In this document: positions 4,711 to 56,940 of the stretch, piece by piece | How the letters are laid out: every line of letters begins with the position of its first letter | How positions within the stretch are numbered: the first letter of the stretch is position 1 | NCBI RefSeq assembly: GCF_013376415.1 | Contig: NZ_WYET01000004.1 | Span: forward strand, 496,001-560,000 | DNA length: 64,000 nucleotides | From: Flagellimonas chongwuensis | GTDB lineage: Bacteria; Bacteroidota; Bacteroidia; Flavobacteriales; Flavobacteriaceae | Direction of reading: 5' to 3' | The notes under the pieces: generated by a model | What the model was told of the DNA's origin: nothing | Seen by the model: only the letters and a program-made list of their open reading frames with translations | The model's database searches: none | Made by a program: the position numbers and the translations under genes

Positions 4711-4736
4711 TGTTCTCGACTGCGCTCGAACTGACA
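4711..4736. repeat. REP-like palindromic repeat, single copy
   Basis: TGTTCTCGACTGCGCTCGAA followed by CTGACA. TCGA lies on both sides of a CTGCGC centre. The same element occurs at 33345, 35235 and, with changes, at 31866 and 56915. This copy sits inside the zwf-pgl intergenic space, so it would be carried in the transcript of that operon. Confidence 0.8.
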
Positions 4737-30199: not shown

Positions 30200-31526
30200 A
30201 TGCAGTTACCTCATTGGATACAAACTCGAACCGTACCAGACCATCGGCATCAATATCGGTAAGCTCCACTTTATGTAAGGTATTCACCAAATTAGGGTCC
30301 CAAGGTGCTTTTACCTTTACGTAGTTTTCAGTAAATCCGTGGATGTAGCCCTTTTTGTTTTCGCCTTCGAACAAAACGGTCCGGACAGTGCCCAATTGAC
30401 TCTCGTAGAACGCCCTGCGTTTTTTGGCGGATAAGCCCCTCAGCATTTTACTGCGTTTACTACGCACTTTTTGGGGCACCACATCCCCCATTTCAGCTGC
30501 TACGGTATTATCCCTTTCAGAATAAGTGAACACATGTAAATAGGAAATATCCAAATCGTTCAGGAAATGATAGGTCTCCAAAAAATGCTCGTCCGTTTCA
30601 CCTGGGAAACCAACAATCACATCTACCCCAATACATGCATGGGGCATCGCATTTTTGATGCGATTTACCCTATCCACATACAAATTGGACAAATAACGAC
30701 GACGCATCTTTTTTAAAATATCATCGCTACCGCTCTGTAACGGTACATGAAAATGAGGCACAAAAGAATTGCTCTGGGCCACAAAATCTATGGTCTCGTT
30801 CTTTAACAAGTTGGGCTCAATGGAAGAAATACGAAGTCGGTGGATTCCTTGAATGGTATCCAAGGCCTTCACCAAATCCAAAAAAGTATGTTCGTGCTTC
30901 TTGTTCCCGAACTCTCCTTTTCCATAATCACCAATATTGACGCCCGTCAACACAATCTCCTTGATATCCTGCGATGCAATTTCCCGAGCATTGTTCAACA
31001 CATTCTCCAACGTATCGCTGCGAGAAATACCACGTGCCAGCGGAATGGTGCAATAGGTGCACTTATAGTCACAGCCATCCTGAACCTTTAAAAATGCACG
31101 GGTACGGTCGCCAATGGCATAACTGCCCACGTAAAAATCGGCATCTTCGATTTCGCAGGAATGTACTTCACCTTTATCATTTTTGGTAAGATCGTTCAGG
31201 TAATCGGTTATTTTGAACTTTTCAGTAGCTCCGAGTACCAAATCCACACCATCCACTTCTGCCAGTTCCTCCGGTTTTAATTGCGCATAACAACCAACTG
31301 CGGCCACAAAAGCATCAGGATTTGCCTTTTGAGCCTGTTTTACGATGGTCTTAAATCGCTTATCGGCATTCTCCGTAACCGAACAGGTATTGATCACATA
31401 CACATCCGCCTCTTCCGAAAAGTCCACACGCTCAAACTCCTCCTTTTCAAAACCTCTGGCAATCGTAGAAGTTTCGGAGAAATTGAGTTTACAACCCAGC
31501 GTGTAAAATGCGACTTTTTTGCTCAT
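30198..31526 (-). CDS. mtaB: tRNA (t6A37) methylthiotransferase MtaB
   Basis: 442 aa, radical-SAM methylthiotransferase that makes ms2t6A at tRNA position 37. The N-terminal UPF0004 domain has T-L-G-C-K-L-N and C-S-V-T, plus V-G-C-Y-A-Q. The radical-SAM C-x3-C-x2-C motif is in G-C-D-Y-K-C-T-Y-C-T-I-P. A C-terminal TRAM-like domain is present. T-L-G-C-K-L-N-F-S-E is the MtaB rather than the MiaB type. Confidence 0.95.
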   Translation of the reverse strand: MSKKVAFYTLGCKLNFSETSTIARGFEKEEFERVDFSEEADVYVINTCSVTENADKRFKTIVKQAQKANPDAFVAAVGCYAQLKPEELAEVDGVDLVLGATEKFKITDYLNDLTKNDKGEVHSCEIEDADFYVGSYAIGDRTRAFLKVQDGCDYKCTYCTIPLARGISRSDTLENVLNNAREIASQDIKEIVLTGVNIGDYGKGEFGNKKHEHTFLDLVKALDTIQGIHRLRISSIEPNLLKNETIDFVAQSNSFVPHFHVPLQSGSDDILKKMRRRYLSNLYVDRVNRIKNAMPHACIGVDVIVGFPGETDEHFLETYHFLNDLDISYLHVFTYSERDNTVAAEMGDVVPQKVRSKRSKMLRGLSAKKRRAFYESQLGTVRTVLFEGENKKGYIHGFTENYVKVKAPWDPNLVNTLHKVELTDIDADGLVRFEFVSNEVTA

Positions 31527-31751
31527 ATAACTGCCTTGTTATTAAGGGGCGCAAAGATAGTGATTTGTTGGGAGTTATCGTAGAGGGGTTATTGATTATT
31601 GATTATTGATTATTGGATTGTTGGATGCTTCGATTTTTTGGAGTTTGGGGTTGTTCGGTTTTTTGTTGAAGGTTGAAGGTGGAAAGGAAAAAGGTCAAAG
31701 ATGAAGGATCAAGGAATCATAGGATTATTCAGGCTGTCATTCGGAACCAAT

Positions 31752-31772
31752 CCCTGAGTGAAGTCGAAGGGC
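31752..31772. repeat. REP-like element, form a
   Basis: CCCTGAGTGAAGTCGAAGGG, the inverted relative of the downstream element at 31866. It matches 33261 and 35183 with small changes. Confidence 0.75.
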
Positions 31773-31865
31773 AGTGAAAAATCCATCTTCCTTGGTCACT
31801 TTGCCCCCCAAATGACAAGCACTACTTTAAATGGGCCTGAAGATGACCGAGTAGCAAAAAACAAA

Positions 31866-31893
31866 GCGTTCTCGACTCCCCTCGAACTGACAA
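31866..31893. repeat. REP-like element, form b
   Basis: GCGTTCTCGACTCCCCTCGA followed by ACTGACAA, with the centre changed from CTGCGC to CTCCCC. Confidence 0.8.
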
Positions 31894-32004
31894 TAAGTAT
31901 ATGTTAACTCATTACCACTTAATAGCTACTGATTTTTGGTTGTTTGTTGTTCAAGTATTGGCTATTTCCCACCGCTTACTTCCATCCTTGATTTTTCCGC
32001 TTCC

Positions 32005-33006
32005 TTAATCGCAGGCTTTCTTATCAACCCCTTTAATAGTCCAATTGTTAGGTGATTTTTTAAGGGTGGAGTACGCAGCAATACCATCATTGTCATTGAG
32101 ACATAGATGTAGTCCTTGCGCACCGAGCTTTACCTTGGGCTGAACCTTTTGTGACGCCCAGCCAATGAGGGTTTTGGAAAAGTTAATGGCAGACATTCCG
32201 CAGTCATCCAACATATGCATCATTCCATCTGTTCTTATTGGGTCGATACTGCTGATGTCCCAACTGCCCAAGTTTTGATCAAAAGAACTGGCCGAAGAGA
32301 ACATAAAATCCATTTCTGCTACAGACGAAGTATCCCAACCGCCAATTTTACCGTTAAAAGAGATAGCTCCGTCAAACATATAAGCCATACGCGTTACAGA
32401 CGAAGTGTCCCAACCACTAATGTCCTTGTTAAAGGCTCCCGCCCTAAGGAACATACCGGTCATATTGGTTACATTGGAAGTGTCCCATCCGCCAATTTCC
32501 CCGTTAAATGTAAAGGCATATGAGAACATATAGGCCATATTGGTTATGGTGGAAGTGTCCCAACCACTGAGGTCGCCCCTTATGAGCCACGCACCATGAA
32601 AGGTTTTTTCCAAACTGGTCACATTGGTAAGGTCCGGGGCATCTGTAGCGGTGTACAACATTTTGGTGCACCATATAAATGCATAGGATAAATCCTGCCA
32701 TACTATATTGCCCCATTGTTCCATACCTACCAATTTCTTCGGTTCATCATCTGAAAACTCAAAAACGGGGTTCATATTAAATGCTGGGAACCTCCCTTGT
32801 ATTACAACCCGGTAGGTGCCCGGAGCCGAATAAGTGTGCTCAAACATATTGGTATCAGGCACCTGATCAATACACTCTACGGTACCATCGCCCCAATCTA
32901 TGGTGAAGTCATAGTCATAATCGGAATTGGCCCCAATATAAATGGGCTCCTCGGGAGCGGTGGTCTCCCATTTGGTTATAAATGAAGTGGTGTCCTTTTC
33001 TTCCAT
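32005..33006 (-). CDS. BspA-like repeat protein lacking a signal peptide (5'-reduced paralogue)
   Basis: About 333 aa from the ATG at 33006; a TTG at 33030 would add L-K-K-A-I-I-V in front. It starts directly with the segment S-F-I-T-K-W-E-T-T, continues with a PKD-like block T-I-D-W-G-D-G-T-V-E and H-T-Y-S-A-P-G-T-Y-R-V, then five or six repeats of the F-N-x-x-I-G-G-W-D-T-S-x-V-T-x-M type (DUF285), and a C-terminal module with T-L-I-G-W-A-S-Q and two cysteines. The neighbour at 33517 shares this order but has a lipoprotein signal and two cadherin-like domains in front. Those are absent here, so this copy is probably reduced and its export is doubtful. Confidence 0.82.
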   Translation of the reverse strand: MEEKDTTSFITKWETTAPEEPIYIGANSDYDYDFTIDWGDGTVECIDQVPDTNMFEHTYSAPGTYRVVIQGRFPAFNMNPVFEFSDDEPKKLVGMEQWGNIVWQDLSYAFIWCTKMLYTATDAPDLTNVTSLEKTFHGAWLIRGDLSGWDTSTITNMAYMFSYAFTFNGEIGGWDTSNVTNMTGMFLRAGAFNKDISGWDTSSVTRMAYMFDGAISFNGKIGGWDTSSVAEMDFMFSSASSFDQNLGSWDISSIDPIRTDGMMHMLDDCGMSAINFSKTLIGWASQKVQPKVKLGAQGLHLCLNDNDGIAAYSTLKKSPNNWTIKGVDKKACD

Positions 33007-33128
33007 TACAATGATTGCCTTTTTTAACAATTAAAGCAAATTCAGGAATTATATCGAAATCTTGACTGCTAATTGACCAATGCCCTATTTGAGTTGACGG
33101 ATGATACGTTTGGATTGACGAAGAATTC

Positions 33129-33170
33129 GGGTTAAGGGTTAAGGGTTAAGGGTTAAGGGTTAAGGGTTAA
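33129..33170. repeat. Tandem 7-mer array GGGTTAA x 6
   Basis: Six exact copies of GGGTTAA without interruption, inside spacer 2. The 7-bp period is the same as in the arrays at 31589 and 33416. Confidence 0.95.
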
Positions 33171-33260
33171 GCGAAAGTAATGGTTCGATTATTGAATGGT
33201 TCGATGGTCAGTTGCCTTCTTGACACGAATTCCACGAATTTTCACCAATGGAGCGCCGGG

Positions 33261-33284
33261 CCCTGAGCGGAGTCGAAGGGGCAT
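33261..33284. repeat. REP-like element, form a
   Basis: CCCTGAGCGGAGTCGAAGGG then GCAT, opposite in orientation to the element at 33345. Confidence 0.8.
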
Positions 33285-33344
33285 GGTTGTTCGATTGCTC
33301 GATTTTTGGATTATTGGATGGTTCGATGGTTGGTCTTTAGGAAA

Positions 33345-33372
33345 GCGTTCTCGACTGCGCTCGAACTGACAA
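33345..33372. repeat. REP-like element, form b
   Basis: GCGTTCTCGACTGCGCTCGA then ACTGACAA, identical to 35235-35262 and to the core at 4711. Confidence 0.85.
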
Positions 33373-33415
33373 GCAACGTTTGTTCATTGTTCACTGTTAA
33401 TTGTTCATTGCCAAC

Positions 33416-33450
33416 TGACTTCTGACTTCTGACTTCTGACTTCTGACTTC
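33416..33450. repeat. Tandem 7-mer array TGACTTC x 5
   Basis: Five exact copies of TGACTTC. A degraded relative (CTGACTCCTGAATTCTGAC) is in spacer 3 near 35361. Confidence 0.95.
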
Positions 33451-33493
33451 TAAAAAAACAAAAACCGGAAAAGCACTTGGCCCTCCCGGTCTT
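33451..33493 (-). terminator. Probable terminator of the BspA-like/cadherin gene
   Basis: On the minus strand ACCGG pairs with CCGGT across a GC-containing loop and is followed by TTTTTGTTTTTTT. The stem is short. Confidence 0.5.
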
Positions 33494-33516
33494 TGCATTA
33501 TAAATATCTTTTTGTG

Positions 33517-34938
33517 TTAATTACAGTTTTTTAAACCATCCCATTCGAATTCCCAATTGTTTGGCTCACTTGATAAAGTAGTAAAAGCTGCAAGTCCACT
33601 GGCATCGTTAAAGCATACATGCAAACCTTCAGCACCTAAAGTTACATTGGGTTGTACCTCTTGGCCCGCCCAGCCAATAAGCGTGTTGGAAAAATTAAGT
33701 GCGGACATTCCATTAGCATCGAACATATCGGACATAAATTCTACACTACTAATATCCCAATCGCCCAAGTCTTGGTCAAACAATGTGGCTCCCTCGAACA
33801 TATATGACATATTGGTAATATTGGAAGTGTCCCAACCACTAAGATCTCCATTGAATGATGTTGCATTGATAAACATTTCCGACATATCTTCTACATTGGA
33901 AAGATCTGGGGCATCTGAGGCATTATAGATCATGTTTTCACAATCAGAGAAAGCACCAAATAACGATTTCCAAGAAATGGCACCCCATTGCTCTATGCTC
34001 ATCAGTTTGTTTCTACTATTAACTTCAATACTAATCGATGGTAACTCACCTTGAATGGACACGGAGTAAGTCCCTGCCGTATCATATGTATGTGGTAGTA
34101 ATTCACCATCCGGTACAACATCGATATGTTCAACAGTACCGTCTCCCCAATTTATAATGAAATTATTCGTGTGTTCATTCCATAGGTACAATGAAATTTC
34201 TTCCCCATCCACTTCTGTTTTCCATGTGGTCACAAAAGCGGCTTTATCGTTGGGGTCAGCCTCGGCCACATCTTCAACGGTAATGGTTATAGTGGCCTCT
34301 ACAGTTTCCTCGCTATCGGTAACACTTACGGTAATGCTGTGGGAGGTCGCGGTCTCGTAATCCAGCGTTTTGCCCTCTGCCAAGGTAAGTACACCGCTTT
34401 CAGAAACGGCGAACAGGTCGTTGTCGTTTTCTTTCATTGTAAACGTCAAGGCATCGCCATCCGCATCGGTGGCCTCAATAGCCCCCATACTTTCACCAGC
34501 AACATGGTTCTCCAATATGGAAAAGTTTTGATCTGTCATTTCGGGGGCTTGGTTGGTGGGAGCAATGCTTGTTACCTTAATGGTAATCGTGGCACTGGCC
34601 GAATCTTCGCCATCGTCCACCTTCACCGTAATGGCGTGCTGTTCCTTGGTGGCTGCATCCAATGTTTTACCACTTGCGAGGCTCAGGTCGCCCGCTGCGG
34701 TGATCTCAAACAGGGCATCGGAGTTGGTGGCAATAGTGAAAGTCAATGTATCGTCATCGGCATCTGTTGCCGTTACCTTACCGATAACCTCTGTATCGGA
34801 AATGGTCTCCGCAACCGTAAAGGTCTTTGAGGCTATTACCGGGACGCTGTTCTCGTCCACCGATGGGGTCGGACCATCGTCCTTTCCGCAGGACCAGAAC
34901 ATGGCCACGGCCAATATTGAAAAAAGTAGCTTTTTCAT
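33517..34938 (-). CDS. Surface lipoprotein with cadherin-like, PKD-like and BspA-like repeats
   Basis: 473 aa. Lipoprotein signal with Cys17 (M-F-W-S-C), then G-K-D-D-G. Two cadherin-like domains follow (about residues 30-125 and 130-225), each with A-T-D-A-D-x-D-x-L-T-F-T, a calcium-binding type of motif. A PKD-like block has I-I-N-W-G-D-G-T-V-E and H-T-Y-D-T-A-G-T-Y-S-V. BspA-like repeats of the S-G-W-D-T-S-N-I-T-N-M type come next, and a C-terminal module has T-L-I-G-W-A-G-Q and two cysteines. It probably acts as a surface adhesin or glycan-binding protein. Its paralogue is at 32005. Confidence 0.9.
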   Translation of the reverse strand: MKKLLFSILAVAMFWSCGKDDGPTPSVDENSVPVIASKTFTVAETISDTEVIGKVTATDADDDTLTFTIATNSDALFEITAAGDLSLASGKTLDAATKEQHAITVKVDDGEDSASATITIKVTSIAPTNQAPEMTDQNFSILENHVAGESMGAIEATDADGDALTFTMKENDNDLFAVSESGVLTLAEGKTLDYETATSHSITVSVTDSEETVEATITITVEDVAEADPNDKAAFVTTWKTEVDGEEISLYLWNEHTNNFIINWGDGTVEHIDVVPDGELLPHTYDTAGTYSVSIQGELPSISIEVNSRNKLMSIEQWGAISWKSLFGAFSDCENMIYNASDAPDLSNVEDMSEMFINATSFNGDLSGWDTSNITNMSYMFEGATLFDQDLGDWDISSVEFMSDMFDANGMSALNFSNTLIGWAGQEVQPNVTLGAEGLHVCFNDASGLAAFTTLSSEPNNWEFEWDGLKNCN

Positions 34939-35182
34939 AATTTTTTTGTTTTATGGATTATATATTCTTGCCAAATTCGGGAGTTTCCACAAGGTTTTGG
35001 GCCACCAATTGACGGATGCCCCATTTGAGTTGACGGATGAGGGGTTTGGATTGATGGAGGTTTGGGTGAAAGGGTAAAAGGTGGAGGGTGAAGGGTTGTT
35101 GGATGGTTGGATGGTTGGATGGTTGGATTGTTAGTTACCATCTTGACACGAATTCCACGAATTCTCACTAACTGAATGCCGG

Positions 35183-35207
35183 ACCCTGAGCCGGGTCGAA
35201 GGGACAT
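35183..35207. repeat. REP-like element, form a
   Basis: ACCCTGAGCCGGGTCGAAGG then GACA, an altered copy of form a. Confidence 0.7.
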
Positions 35208-35234
35208 GGTTATTGGTTTTTGGTAAAAGGCAAA

Positions 35235-35262
35235 GCGTTCTCGACTGCGCTCGAACTGACAA
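35235..35262. repeat. REP-like element, form b
   Basis: Identical over 28 bp to 33345-33372. Confidence 0.85.
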
Positions 35263-35425
35263 GTGATGATTATTGACTGCCTTCTGATTAACAGCCACCG
35301 TTAATTGCATGTTCCTCATTGATAACTGTTAATTGTCTATTGTTCATTGTAAACTGCCAACTGACTCCTGAATTCTGACATCTTTTAAGTACCTTGTTCG
35401 TTCATACCAACCGTAAAACAACACA

Positions 35426-36724
35426 ATGAAAAAAATCGCATTCCTCATCTTGTTTGTTCTAATCGCCAATCTATCTGTTGCGCAAGAATACCAGCCCACC
35501 AAAGAAAATCTTGAAAATAGGGAATGGTACCAAGATGCCAAATTCGGTATGTTCATCCATTGGGGCGTGTATTCCGTTTTGGGCCAACACGAATGGGTGA
35601 TGGAAACTGAATCAATTGACGTAAAAACCTATGAGAAACTGCCCGCATTCTTCAACCCGACCGAATTCGATGCCGAAGAATGGGTGTTACTGGCCAAATC
35701 AGCGGGTATGAAGTACATCACGATTACTTCCAAGCACCATGATGGCTTTGCCATGTTCGACAGTAAATTATCGGATTGGGACATTATGGACCGTACCGTT
35801 TACCAACAAGATGTCATCAAACAAATGGCCGAGGCCTGTAAAAAGCACGATATAAAGTTATTTCTGTACTACTCGCAACTGGACTGGCACCATAACGATT
35901 ATTATCCAAGGGGTGACACAGGAAAAAAAGCGGGACGGCCAGACCAGGGAAATTGGGAAAGCTATTTGGATTACATGAACGGTCAGCTCACAGAACTATT
36001 GACCAATTATGGTGAAATAGGCGGTATTTGGTTTGATGGCTGGTGGGACAAAAAAGAGGCTGATTGGCAGCTCAGAAAAACCTACGACCTTATCCACCAG
36101 CTACAACCGCAGGCCATGATCGGGAGCAACCACCACCAAGCACCCAACCCTGGGGAGGATTTTCAAATGTTTGAAAAAGACCTGCCCGGAGAAAACAAAG
36201 GTGGTTATAGTGCCGAAGCAACCGTTGGAAAGCTCCCCCTTGAAACCGCAGAGACCATGGCGCACCGTTGGGGTTTTTCTTTACAGGACAAAGCATATAA
36301 GTCATCCAAAGAACTGATTCAGTATTTGGTGAAAGCAGCAGGATACAATTCCAACTTTTTGCTCAATGTAGGCCCAATGCCAAACGGTAAGATTCAGCCT
36401 GAGTTTGTAAAGACCTTAAAAGTTATAGGAGATTGGACAGATACCTACGGTGAAACCATTTACGGGACACGAGGCGGCCCTATTTCGCCACAGAGTTGGG
36501 GGGTATCTACCCAAAAAGATGATAAAATCTACGTTCACATTATGGATTGGAAAACGGATAGTTTCCTTTTCCCAACAATTCAAGGTGAGCTAAAATCTGT
36601 TTTTGATTTTCAAACAAAGAAGAAATTGAAATTTGAGACCAATTCTTACGGAACGCTGGTACAGCTTCCTGAAGGACGGGATTATGGCCAAGCAGATTTT
36701 GTGTTGGAAGTGACTATCAAATAA
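35426..36724 (+). CDS. GH29 alpha-L-fucosidase, secreted
   Basis: 432 aa with a signal peptide (cleavage after about residue 18, L-S-V-A-Q). The N-terminal part has W-Y-Q-D-A-K-F-G-M-F-I-H-W-G and T-S-K-H-H-D-G-F-A-M-F, both GH29 hallmarks. The catalytic nucleophile is Asp204 in G-G-I-W-F-D-G-W-W. It is a retaining hydrolase that removes fucose from glycans such as algal polysaccharides or glycoproteins. It is followed at 8 bp by an ABM-domain lipoprotein gene. No SusC/SusD pair is nearby, so this is not a full polysaccharide utilisation locus. Confidence 0.95.
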   Translation: MKKIAFLILFVLIANLSVAQEYQPTKENLENREWYQDAKFGMFIHWGVYSVLGQHEWVMETESIDVKTYEKLPAFFNPTEFDAEEWVLLAKSAGMKYITITSKHHDGFAMFDSKLSDWDIMDRTVYQQDVIKQMAEACKKHDIKLFLYYSQLDWHHNDYYPRGDTGKKAGRPDQGNWESYLDYMNGQLTELLTNYGEIGGIWFDGWWDKKEADWQLRKTYDLIHQLQPQAMIGSNHHQAPNPGEDFQMFEKDLPGENKGGYSAEATVGKLPLETAETMAHRWGFSLQDKAYKSSKELIQYLVKAAGYNSNFLLNVGPMPNGKIQPEFVKTLKVIGDWTDTYGETIYGTRGGPISPQSWGVSTQKDDKIYVHIMDWKTDSFLFPTIQGELKSVFDFQTKKKLKFETNSYGTLVQLPEGRDYGQADFVLEVTIK

Positions 36725-56738: not shown

Positions 56739-56885
56739 TTGCCCCAAAATGGATGCTGTTCGAGAAATTTGTACAATTTGTATTGAACTCCTTTCGCAGG
56801 AATGACATCAATTAATGGCTCTAAACTGTCATTATAAAGAAGTGCAAAGACTGAAGATTGTATTTTGTCCCATTTGCCGGATTTG

Positions 56886-56908
56886 TCACATCGAGCGCAG
56901 TCGAGATG
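56886..56908. repeat. REP-like element, inverted member of a close pair
   Basis: TCACATCGAGCGCAGTCGAG followed by ATG. The inverted partner begins 7 bp later at 56915. Confidence 0.75.
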
Positions 56909-56914
56909 TTTTTA

Positions 56915-56940
56915 GGTTCTCGACTCCGCTCGAACTAACA
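56915..56940. repeat. REP-like element, form b
   Basis: GGTTCTCGACTCCGCTCGAA then CTAACA; together with 56886 it forms one large potential hairpin between convergent genes. Confidence 0.75.

Follow-up and report, generated by a model that had tools for sequence, protein, structure and literature searches.

Within the 64,000-nucleotide window analyzed here (positions 496,001 to 560,000 of contig NZ_WYET01000004.1 of Flagellimonas chongwuensis, assembly GCF_013376415.1), three successive intergenic spacers at window positions 31752 to 35262 each carry an inverted pair of two related short palindromes, which we call form a and form b. The locus raises the question of what these palindromes are and what has spread them. 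We consider it probable that a dedicated small nuclease of the GIY-YIG type, whose gene lies between two form-b copies elsewhere in the same genome, spreads these non-autonomous repeats in trans.

In the first spacer, form a occupies positions 31752-31771 on the minus strand (the strand of its core) with two mismatches to the form-a string and constitutes the left half of the inverted pair; its partner, form b, is located at 31866-31892 on the plus strand (22-mer 31871-31892), with two mismatches, both of them changes in the loop, and with the TGACA end that terminates the 22-mer on which form-b matches were scored. The second spacer contains a form a without mismatches (33261-33280, minus) and a form b whose 22-mer is exact (33345-33371, plus; 22-mer 33350-33371), and the third a form a with two mismatches (35184-35203, minus) and another exact form b (35235-35261, plus; 22-mer 35240-35261). 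The first-pass annotation had placed all six copies within a base of these positions; its third form a, given as starting at 35183, is a genuine site that starts at 35184. It had also pointed to copies outside the region, near 4711 and as a pair at 56886/56915. These were recovered as a lone form b at 4711-4736 (plus; 22-mer 4715-4736), between two minus-strand genes, and as a 57-bp dimer of two form-b copies with their tags outward at 56884-56940 (halves 56884-56905, minus, and 56919-56940, plus). Dimers of the latter kind are also present elsewhere in the F. chongwuensis genome and in congeners. In 100 shuffles of the window, the mean number of occurrences of either string at up to three mismatches was 0.00.

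The pairs had been read in the first-pass annotation as inverted and REP-like (repetitive extragenic palindromic), and a small genome-wide number of copies, or the lack of an excess of the inverted arrangement, would speak against that reading. In the 3.77-Mb genome, 41 form-b 22-mers were found at up to two mismatches and 46 matches to a degenerate form-b 23-mer at up to one, compared with none for the reversed pattern in either case, while the 12-base core was present 104 times at up to one mismatch compared with 9 times in reversed form. Among the 36 genus genomes, 34 have at least one form-b copy (at most one mismatch), and the reversed control gave 0 in all 59 genomes searched. A pattern count over 170 kb fetched around copies yielded 51 form-b and 26 form-a elements. 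Neighboring elements no more than 120 bp apart were head-to-head in 17 of 23 cases, tail-to-tail in four and in tandem in two (p = 1.2e-6 against one quarter). This count dropped elements whose letters after the core are neither GA nor AG, a rule by which the head-to-head pairs C1:368902/368928, C2:71132/71177 and C4:105652/105690 were lost; ten of the 17 head-to-head pairs are co-duplicated a-b pairs and are therefore non-independent. In a bacterial interspersed mosaic element, REPs alternate in orientation at regular short spacing; here, the orientation alternates, and the spacing is short (26-116 bp) and irregular. The inverted pairing and the REP-like character of the elements are thus borne out by the genome-wide count.

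Read from the tag, form b has the structure TGTC-A-xy-TCGA-GCGNAG-TCGA-GA-y'x'-T, in which an outer tag, a stem with variable but complementary xy and y'x', a 2-base bulge and a nearly fixed 6-base loop can be recognized by inspection. The variants of xy, given for the other strand, include GT/AC, GG/CC, CA/TG, CC/GG, TC/GA and others. The two variable positions are Watson-Crick pairs in 30/30 and 28/30 distinct copies of the F. chongwuensis genome and in 146/149 and 132/149 copies of the genome collection, where 51.1 and 46.3 would be expected if the positions were independent; the copies were picked by exact match to loop, bulge and tag, and the count says nothing on the constancy of those parts. 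Form a has its bulge and loop (CTTCGACTCCGCTCAG) in common with form b and differs in the outer stem pairs. At two loci in C2:294-314 kb (L053 and L054), form-a-like copies with a near-identical 40-bp context lie ca. 2-2.6 kb apart, three on the minus strand followed by two or three on the plus strand, as if an array had been inverted around its middle.

All-against-all comparison of the genes adjoining copies at 119 loci revealed, as the widest recurrent family, five small proteins encoded 8-63 bp from a copy. The five resemble GIY-YIG proteins, and both of the two tested match PF01541; neither of two nuclease proteins tried matched a named NCBIfam model. F. chongwuensis has one small gene of this kind, whose 106-amino-acid product matches PF01541 with 59.1 bits (cut-off 22.6; 5.6e-16) and has 1zg2 and 1ywl (UPF0213) as its nearest solved structures; three further PF01541 matches in the genome fall in frames of 440-611 amino acids. 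The small gene forms a cassette, C1:777811-778190, located 218 kb beyond the end of the window. The gene (PF01541 domain C1:777854-778072) sits exactly between inverted form-b palindromes at 777820 (minus) and 778170 (plus), the start codon being 9 bp past one palindrome and the stop codon abutting the other, and the cassette includes a 25-bp inverted repeat, TGTCAGGTCGAGCGCAGTCGAGACC.

The comparison was extended to small GIY-YIG genes of related and distant genomes. A set of 114 was assembled from 60 loci returned by searches and 60 stretches chosen among the matches listed, a choice that skipped some matches, e.g., those near contig ends or low in the list; two of the 114 are double-counted (L357 is L410, and L342 is L325). 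The form-a/b core is present on both sides, head-to-head, in 17/114 of these genes (16/112 after deduplication) and in 0/521 control open reading frames (ORFs), the loci of the latter having been partly fetched around elements. With a motif-free score of flanking inverted repeats, 35/114 GIY-YIG genes (33/112 deduplicated) and 0/398 control ORFs scored 16 or more; in the positive control, ORFs in loci of Y1_Tnp transposase genes, 15/124 did so. When the cut was set at 14, the numbers were 47 for GIY-YIG genes, 3 for control ORFs and 15 for ORFs of Y1 loci. In the protein alignment, residues Y15, Y25, G27, H39 and E73 are found in all 112 rows and R35 in 111; we take these six residues to be the catalytic set. 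At one of the loci (L347, contig C25 of the Clostridia-titled bin G068), the GIY-YIG gene has tandem form-b copies, spaced ca. 45 bp apart and all in a single orientation, on each side.

The type of flanking palindrome follows the phylogeny of the nuclease. The types are largely confined to clades of their own, namely form b, form-a-like GGTGGCTGAGCGNAGTCGAAGCCAC, CGTCACTTCGAGTG, CTGAACTTGTTTCAG, TTTCGA...GAGAAA and TTCC.GCG..GCGGGAA. Over the 69 labeled genes, the nuclease tree, which has 112 rows, few columns and many unresolved forks, requires 11 changes of palindrome type, compared with a mean of 44.0 (least 38) for shuffled labels; over the 35 genes labeled on both flanks, it requires 6, compared with 20.8 (least 17). 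The labels (B, A, C1, D, E, F and G, names of our own) stand for patterns that we defined and sought in 130-bp flanks, and they were assigned on both flanks in 35 rows and on one in 34, with 43 of 112 rows unlabeled.

The copy number of form b also varies with the presence of the nuclease. A close relative of the F. chongwuensis protein (at least 64% identity over most of the length) is encoded in 10 of the 36 genus genomes, with nuclease fragments in G012 and G027 counted as absent. The median number of form-b copies is 51.5 in these ten genomes and 19.5 in the 26 others (p = 8e-5). On a tree of 30 of the 36 genomes, nuclease presence changes 9 times, and tree neighbors with and without the gene have 46 and 25 copies (G000 and G010), 61 and 28 (G008 and G035), 58 and 52 (G005 and G001), 57 and 51 (G013 and G022) and 39 and 25 (G002 and G019). 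Among independent pairs, a threshold of 30 or 35 copies gives 5 or 6 that differ in the expected direction and 0 in the opposite one (sign test p 0.03-0.06). Since nine of the ten close nuclease genes have a neighboring gene in common, the most parsimonious history is one of repeated gene loss and subsequent decay of the copies. In G005, the close nuclease gene (L439) is at another locus and shares no flanking gene with these nine.

At orthologous places, the elements differ between genomes. Across 30 genus genomes (F. chongwuensis included), the gap around the copy at 4715 contains an exact copy, a decayed one, a different tagged palindrome, a nested one or no element at all. At the C4:107729 site, where 28 of 30 loci were readable, a palindrome is lacking altogether in some congeners, and several different CGTC-type palindromes are present in others. 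The dimer at 56884-56940 has no counterpart in the corresponding gap of L252, L255 and L266 and an altered one in L251 and L262, 6 of 24 loci being readable across this gap. Inspection by eye revealed a palindrome inside the loop of another in L197 and a second such nesting in L437, with apparent cases also in L213, L223 and L230; these are hints of insertion into hairpin loops.

The association of palindromes with GIY-YIG genes extends beyond the genus. A tblastn search of a plasmid collection with a partial CGTC-1-like GIY-YIG protein (L344, itself flanked by palindromes of that type) gave 31 records, mostly of Rhizobiales and Sphingomonadales and two of Neisseria. Fourteen of the 31, three of them Shinella, were fetched and near-duplicates left out; among the latter were seven of eight Rhizobium records with the same match (H12-H19), so that negatives could make up a larger share if every record were counted. 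CGTC- or CCTC-type palindromes are present on both sides of the GIY-YIG gene in 11/14 records: Azospirillum lipoferum 4B, Sinorhizobium meliloti, Novosphingobium aromaticivorans, Sphingobium, Neorhizobium, Rhizobium CIAT894, the three Shinella, Aeromonas caviae and Neisseria gonorrhoeae. The Photobacterium record has a palindrome on a single side, and Rhizobium K1/93 (which stands for the eight similar records) and Planktothrix have no flanking palindromes of the CGTC or CCTC type. The nearest palindromes are tag-outward in 8 of the 11 both-sided records, Novosphingobium being judged solely from its inverted repeat. Those closest to the gene in Neisseria, Azospirillum and Sinorhizobium are inward-facing or parts of dimers. 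In A. lipoferum, the cassette (gene plus palindromes) occupies the gap from sufB to sufC; A. ramasamyi, A. oryzae and Azospirillum sp. B510 have no cassette there, and the gap also differs outside the element. Sphingobium sp. TomTYG73 (L480) has a cassette with a frame-shifted nuclease gene, at the site of which TomTYG74 (L477) has a single palindrome and no gene, and TomTYG72 has neither. Phages were considered as carriers and rejected, as tblastn with one CGTC-type GIY-YIG protein gave 0 matches in 50,697 phage records.

A scan of one genome per GTDB species returned at least 119 stretches with elements. Of the 80 titled stretches listed, most belong to Bacteroidota and some are titled Clostridia, Verrucomicrobia or Planctomycetota. 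Twelve genomes or bins from outside Bacteroidota contain from 1 to 131 copies each, with 0 for the reversed control, and the bins may be contaminated. Palindromes combined with the nuclease were observed in Bacteroidota and Pseudomonadota, and single metagenome bins gave the same combination for Verrucomicrobiota, Planctomycetota and Clostridia.

How might the nuclease act? The linkage of palindromes and nuclease is observed, while its chemistry we infer. The palindromes would be mobile repeats of the REP kind, non-autonomous and CGTC/TGTC-tagged. Each palindrome family would have a small GIY-YIG nuclease of its own, which would act in trans from a cassette enclosed by two palindromes of that family and would maintain and spread the non-autonomous copies. 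The nuclease may bind the hairpin or the tag and cut there, perhaps at a palindrome that is extruded or single-stranded at the replication fork. GIY-YIG enzymes hydrolyze DNA, and no strand-joining step is known for them. For this reason, host repair would have to complete the copying or joining. In the window, a-b pairs would have reached a spacer next to a gene of the DUF285 family and then multiplied by duplication of gene plus spacer. We give about an even chance to the broader proposition that CGTC/TGTC palindromes and small GIY-YIG nucleases constitute a general class of bacterial mobile systems, parallel to REP elements and their REP-associated tyrosine transposases (RAYTs) and using an unrelated enzyme. 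In such a class, the nuclease would recognize the hairpin and tag of its own family and drive copying in trans without a transposase, insertion into loops (as in L197 and L437) being one route.

Several observations weigh against a nuclease that spreads the palindromes. Form a in the window lacks the TGTC tag, and the F. chongwuensis genome has no nuclease of the form-a clade. Folded as single-stranded DNA, six single copies gave weak structures (z from -0.55 to 0.52), which lends no support to a strong single-strand hairpin. When a core within 200 bp on either side is scored, the contrast is weaker than for both sides (32/114 compared with 79/521 controls); 79 of the 114 small genes lack a strong inverted repeat in their flanks, and the 35 strong repeats comprise, by eye, 15 that are [CT]GTC-tagged, 7 form-a-like, 5 related palindromes and 8 unrelated ones. 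Form-b palindromes also flank nucleases beyond the form-b clade (L341, L347, L348 and L364). With the cut at 25 copies, a mean of 2.6 independent pairs differ as expected and 0 in the opposite direction, with a median p of 0.25. G001 and G022 have their 52 and 51 copies without a close nuclease relative, and G015 has 16 copies despite having the gene, therefore the link between nuclease and copy number is loose. Each of two bins titled Clostridia, which contain 106 and 131 copies, gave a single GIY-YIG match, of the size of UvrC. Finally, the neighboring gene common to nine of the ten close nuclease genes implies that the cassette itself rarely moves.

The alternative that survives best we regard as unlikely: the GIY-YIG gene would be a passenger or dependent of the palindromes, spread by an unseen enzyme or by replication errors, and would either have been captured by them or keep them in check as a structure-specific nuclease. 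The want of a known joining step in GIY-YIG domains, the high-copy genomes without a close nuclease and the mostly single locus of the cassette are all what one would expect of such a gene. A mere passenger is harder to reconcile with nuclease clades that match palindrome types, with the conservation of the six residues and with the greater number of copies where the gene is kept. Clade matching, conserved residues and copy number together point to a direct role of the nuclease in upkeep or spread, and dedicated GIY-YIG action in trans therefore remains the reading that we prefer.

An improbable alternative is that the palindromes are transcription terminators or mRNA stabilizers that are under selection for that function and do not move, a role that the first-pass annotation had entertained. 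The maintained complementarity of the stem agrees with it, and so does the placement of elements at the 119 loci: convergent gaps are favored (21/83 gaps with an element compared with 39/347 without, p = 0.002) and divergent gaps avoided (6/83 compared with 67/347, p = 0.009). However, all 7 terminator-like sites found in 31500-35450 lie outside the three pairs, and intrinsic terminators at these pairs were accordingly rejected, as was a known RNA element, the window having no Rfam match at the gathering threshold. The weak folds, the 36 of 151 copies that lie within ORFs of at least 100 amino acids (as called by a crude ORF caller) and the loss, replacement or nesting of elements at orthologous gaps also argue against an immobile signal. 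A host role such as termination may have been added to the repeats later.

The first-pass annotation had noted that REP families are known to be moved by RAYTs and that the window has none. That the palindromes are ordinary REP elements, whose RAYT (TnpA_REP) has since been lost from the F. chongwuensis genome, appears very improbable to us and is already largely refuted. It is true that the head-to-head pairs resemble REPINs (REP doublets forming hairpins), that Y1_Tnp genes (PF01797) were matched in 5/36 genus genomes searched and that the flanking inverted repeats of ORFs in Y1 loci, mentioned above, are those expected for RAYTs. Yet PF01797 has 0 matches in the F. chongwuensis genome, and the core adjoins the Y1 gene in 0/20 PF01797 loci of relatives, where the five core matches at two mismatches all lie more than 500 bp from the gene. 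Genomes entirely without a PF01797 match have high copy numbers (51 in G066, 106 in G067, 71 in G068, 35 in G072 and 57 in G074). The tag is TGTC and not GTAG, and the gene that the palindrome flanks is a different one, GIY-YIG. A RAYT was thus rejected as the mover.

It remains to account for the presence of pairs in three successive spacers. The two genes between the spacers, 32005-33030 (minus; PF03382, 2.8e-47) and 33517-34938 (minus; PF03382, 1.3e-25), are paralogues of the DUF285 family, the latter with cadherin-like domains. A part of the second spacer that includes form a (33071-33291) aligns to 35007-35214 in the third over 221 bp with 75% identity, while the first spacer shares just ca. 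38 bp, around form b, with the others. All ten head-to-head a-b pairs present in the 170 kb of fetched sequence lie within the spacers of four DUF285 gene arrays (C1:299-301 kb, C1:403-407 kb, C1:528-531 kb, which is the array of the window, and C5:58-60 kb), and the spacers of these arrays share stretches of homology with the second and third spacers. Spacer homology and gene paralogy together indicate that the local repetition is largely due to duplication of gene plus spacer. The first-pass observation of pairs in three successive spacers therefore stands, while their independence does not: judging from the alignments, these are not three independent insertions. That the pairs are mere by-products of this duplication and uninformative about the palindromes, as the homology of the second and third spacers and the position of all ten a-b pairs beside DUF285 genes might suggest, has next to no probability, for it leaves the form-b copies outside the arrays and in other genomes unexplained; the duplication is instead a component of the explanation by GIY-YIG action.

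Two other features of these spacers were noticed. A motif of ca. 53 bp (TTGAGTTGACGGATG...GGTTTGGATTGA) at ca. 33071-33123 and 35000-35060, in spacers by the 5' ends of DUF285 genes, recurs with 83-89% identity beside other C2 loci (C2:297526-311059; L053 and L054) and is possibly a shared regulatory region. Simple-repeat runs of GGGTTAA, CTGACTT and ATTGATT are present in the window spacers (ca. 33129-33171, 33413-33452 and 31591-31615), and bits of them are also found in paralogous spacers.

Among known systems, the closest are the CGTC-tagged palindromic repeats, which Di Nocera et al. 2013 (PMC3733652) describe from five phyla, apparently without a dedicated transposase, and for which they name A. 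lipoferum, S. meliloti, N. aromaticivorans and Neisseria as carriers. As in form b, a TGTC variant of the terminal tag stands outside the stem (TGACA/TGTCA), and as in our data, the stem changes in a complementary manner between sub-families, head-to-head dimers predominate, and the repeats are mostly intergenic and occur in several phyla including Bacteroidetes (PMC3733652). The differences lie in the stem of 8-9 bp and loop of 4-5 bases, whereas form b has a bulged stem and a 6-base loop; in the tag, which form a lacks; and in the association with a gene, as PMC3733652 reports none for a transposase, whereas here the palindromes enclose a GIY-YIG gene, including in the four named carriers. 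With its bulged stem and 6-base loop, form b is no more than a new addition to the four families described. A candidate enzyme whose flanking palindrome depends on its clade makes the missing-transposase question of CGTC repeats directly testable.

In REP-RAYT systems, the repeats are present in many copies, the gene of the enzyme is flanked by its own palindromes and the enzyme clade is matched to the palindrome family. Short palindromes and inverted pairs are likewise common to both (PMC3116915 and PMC6006769). The maintenance and spread proposed here for the nuclease would correspond to the part that RAYTs are believed to play for REPINs. The RAYT enzyme, however, is an HUH/tyrosine transposase and the tag is GTAG, as opposed to a GIY-YIG nuclease and TGTC/CGTC here. 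Spread of repeats by a hydrolytic nuclease that has no joining step would, if true, be a mechanism new to REP-like elements.

The small GIY-YIG proteins of UPF0213 (PDB 1zg2 and 1ywl) have, as here, a single GIY-YIG domain of ca. 100 amino acids, and no link of theirs to repeats was found in the open-access literature searched. Caulobacter has three COG2827 genes, one with an SOS box, according to PMC1839093. Should our reading be true, it would provide a role for widespread small proteins that are annotated only as "GIY-YIG nuclease family protein". GIY-YIG domains are also part of other selfish elements, the homing endonucleases and Penelope elements (PMC1564403); in the present case there is no intron and no reverse transcriptase, and a pair of palindromes surrounds a single-domain gene. 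Among the titles and abstract openings listed by searches of the open-access literature, no link between GIY-YIG proteins and palindromic repeats was found. The CGTC-tagged superfamily and the principle of a repeat with a dedicated enzyme were already known, and what appears to be new here is a candidate nuclease partner for the palindromes.

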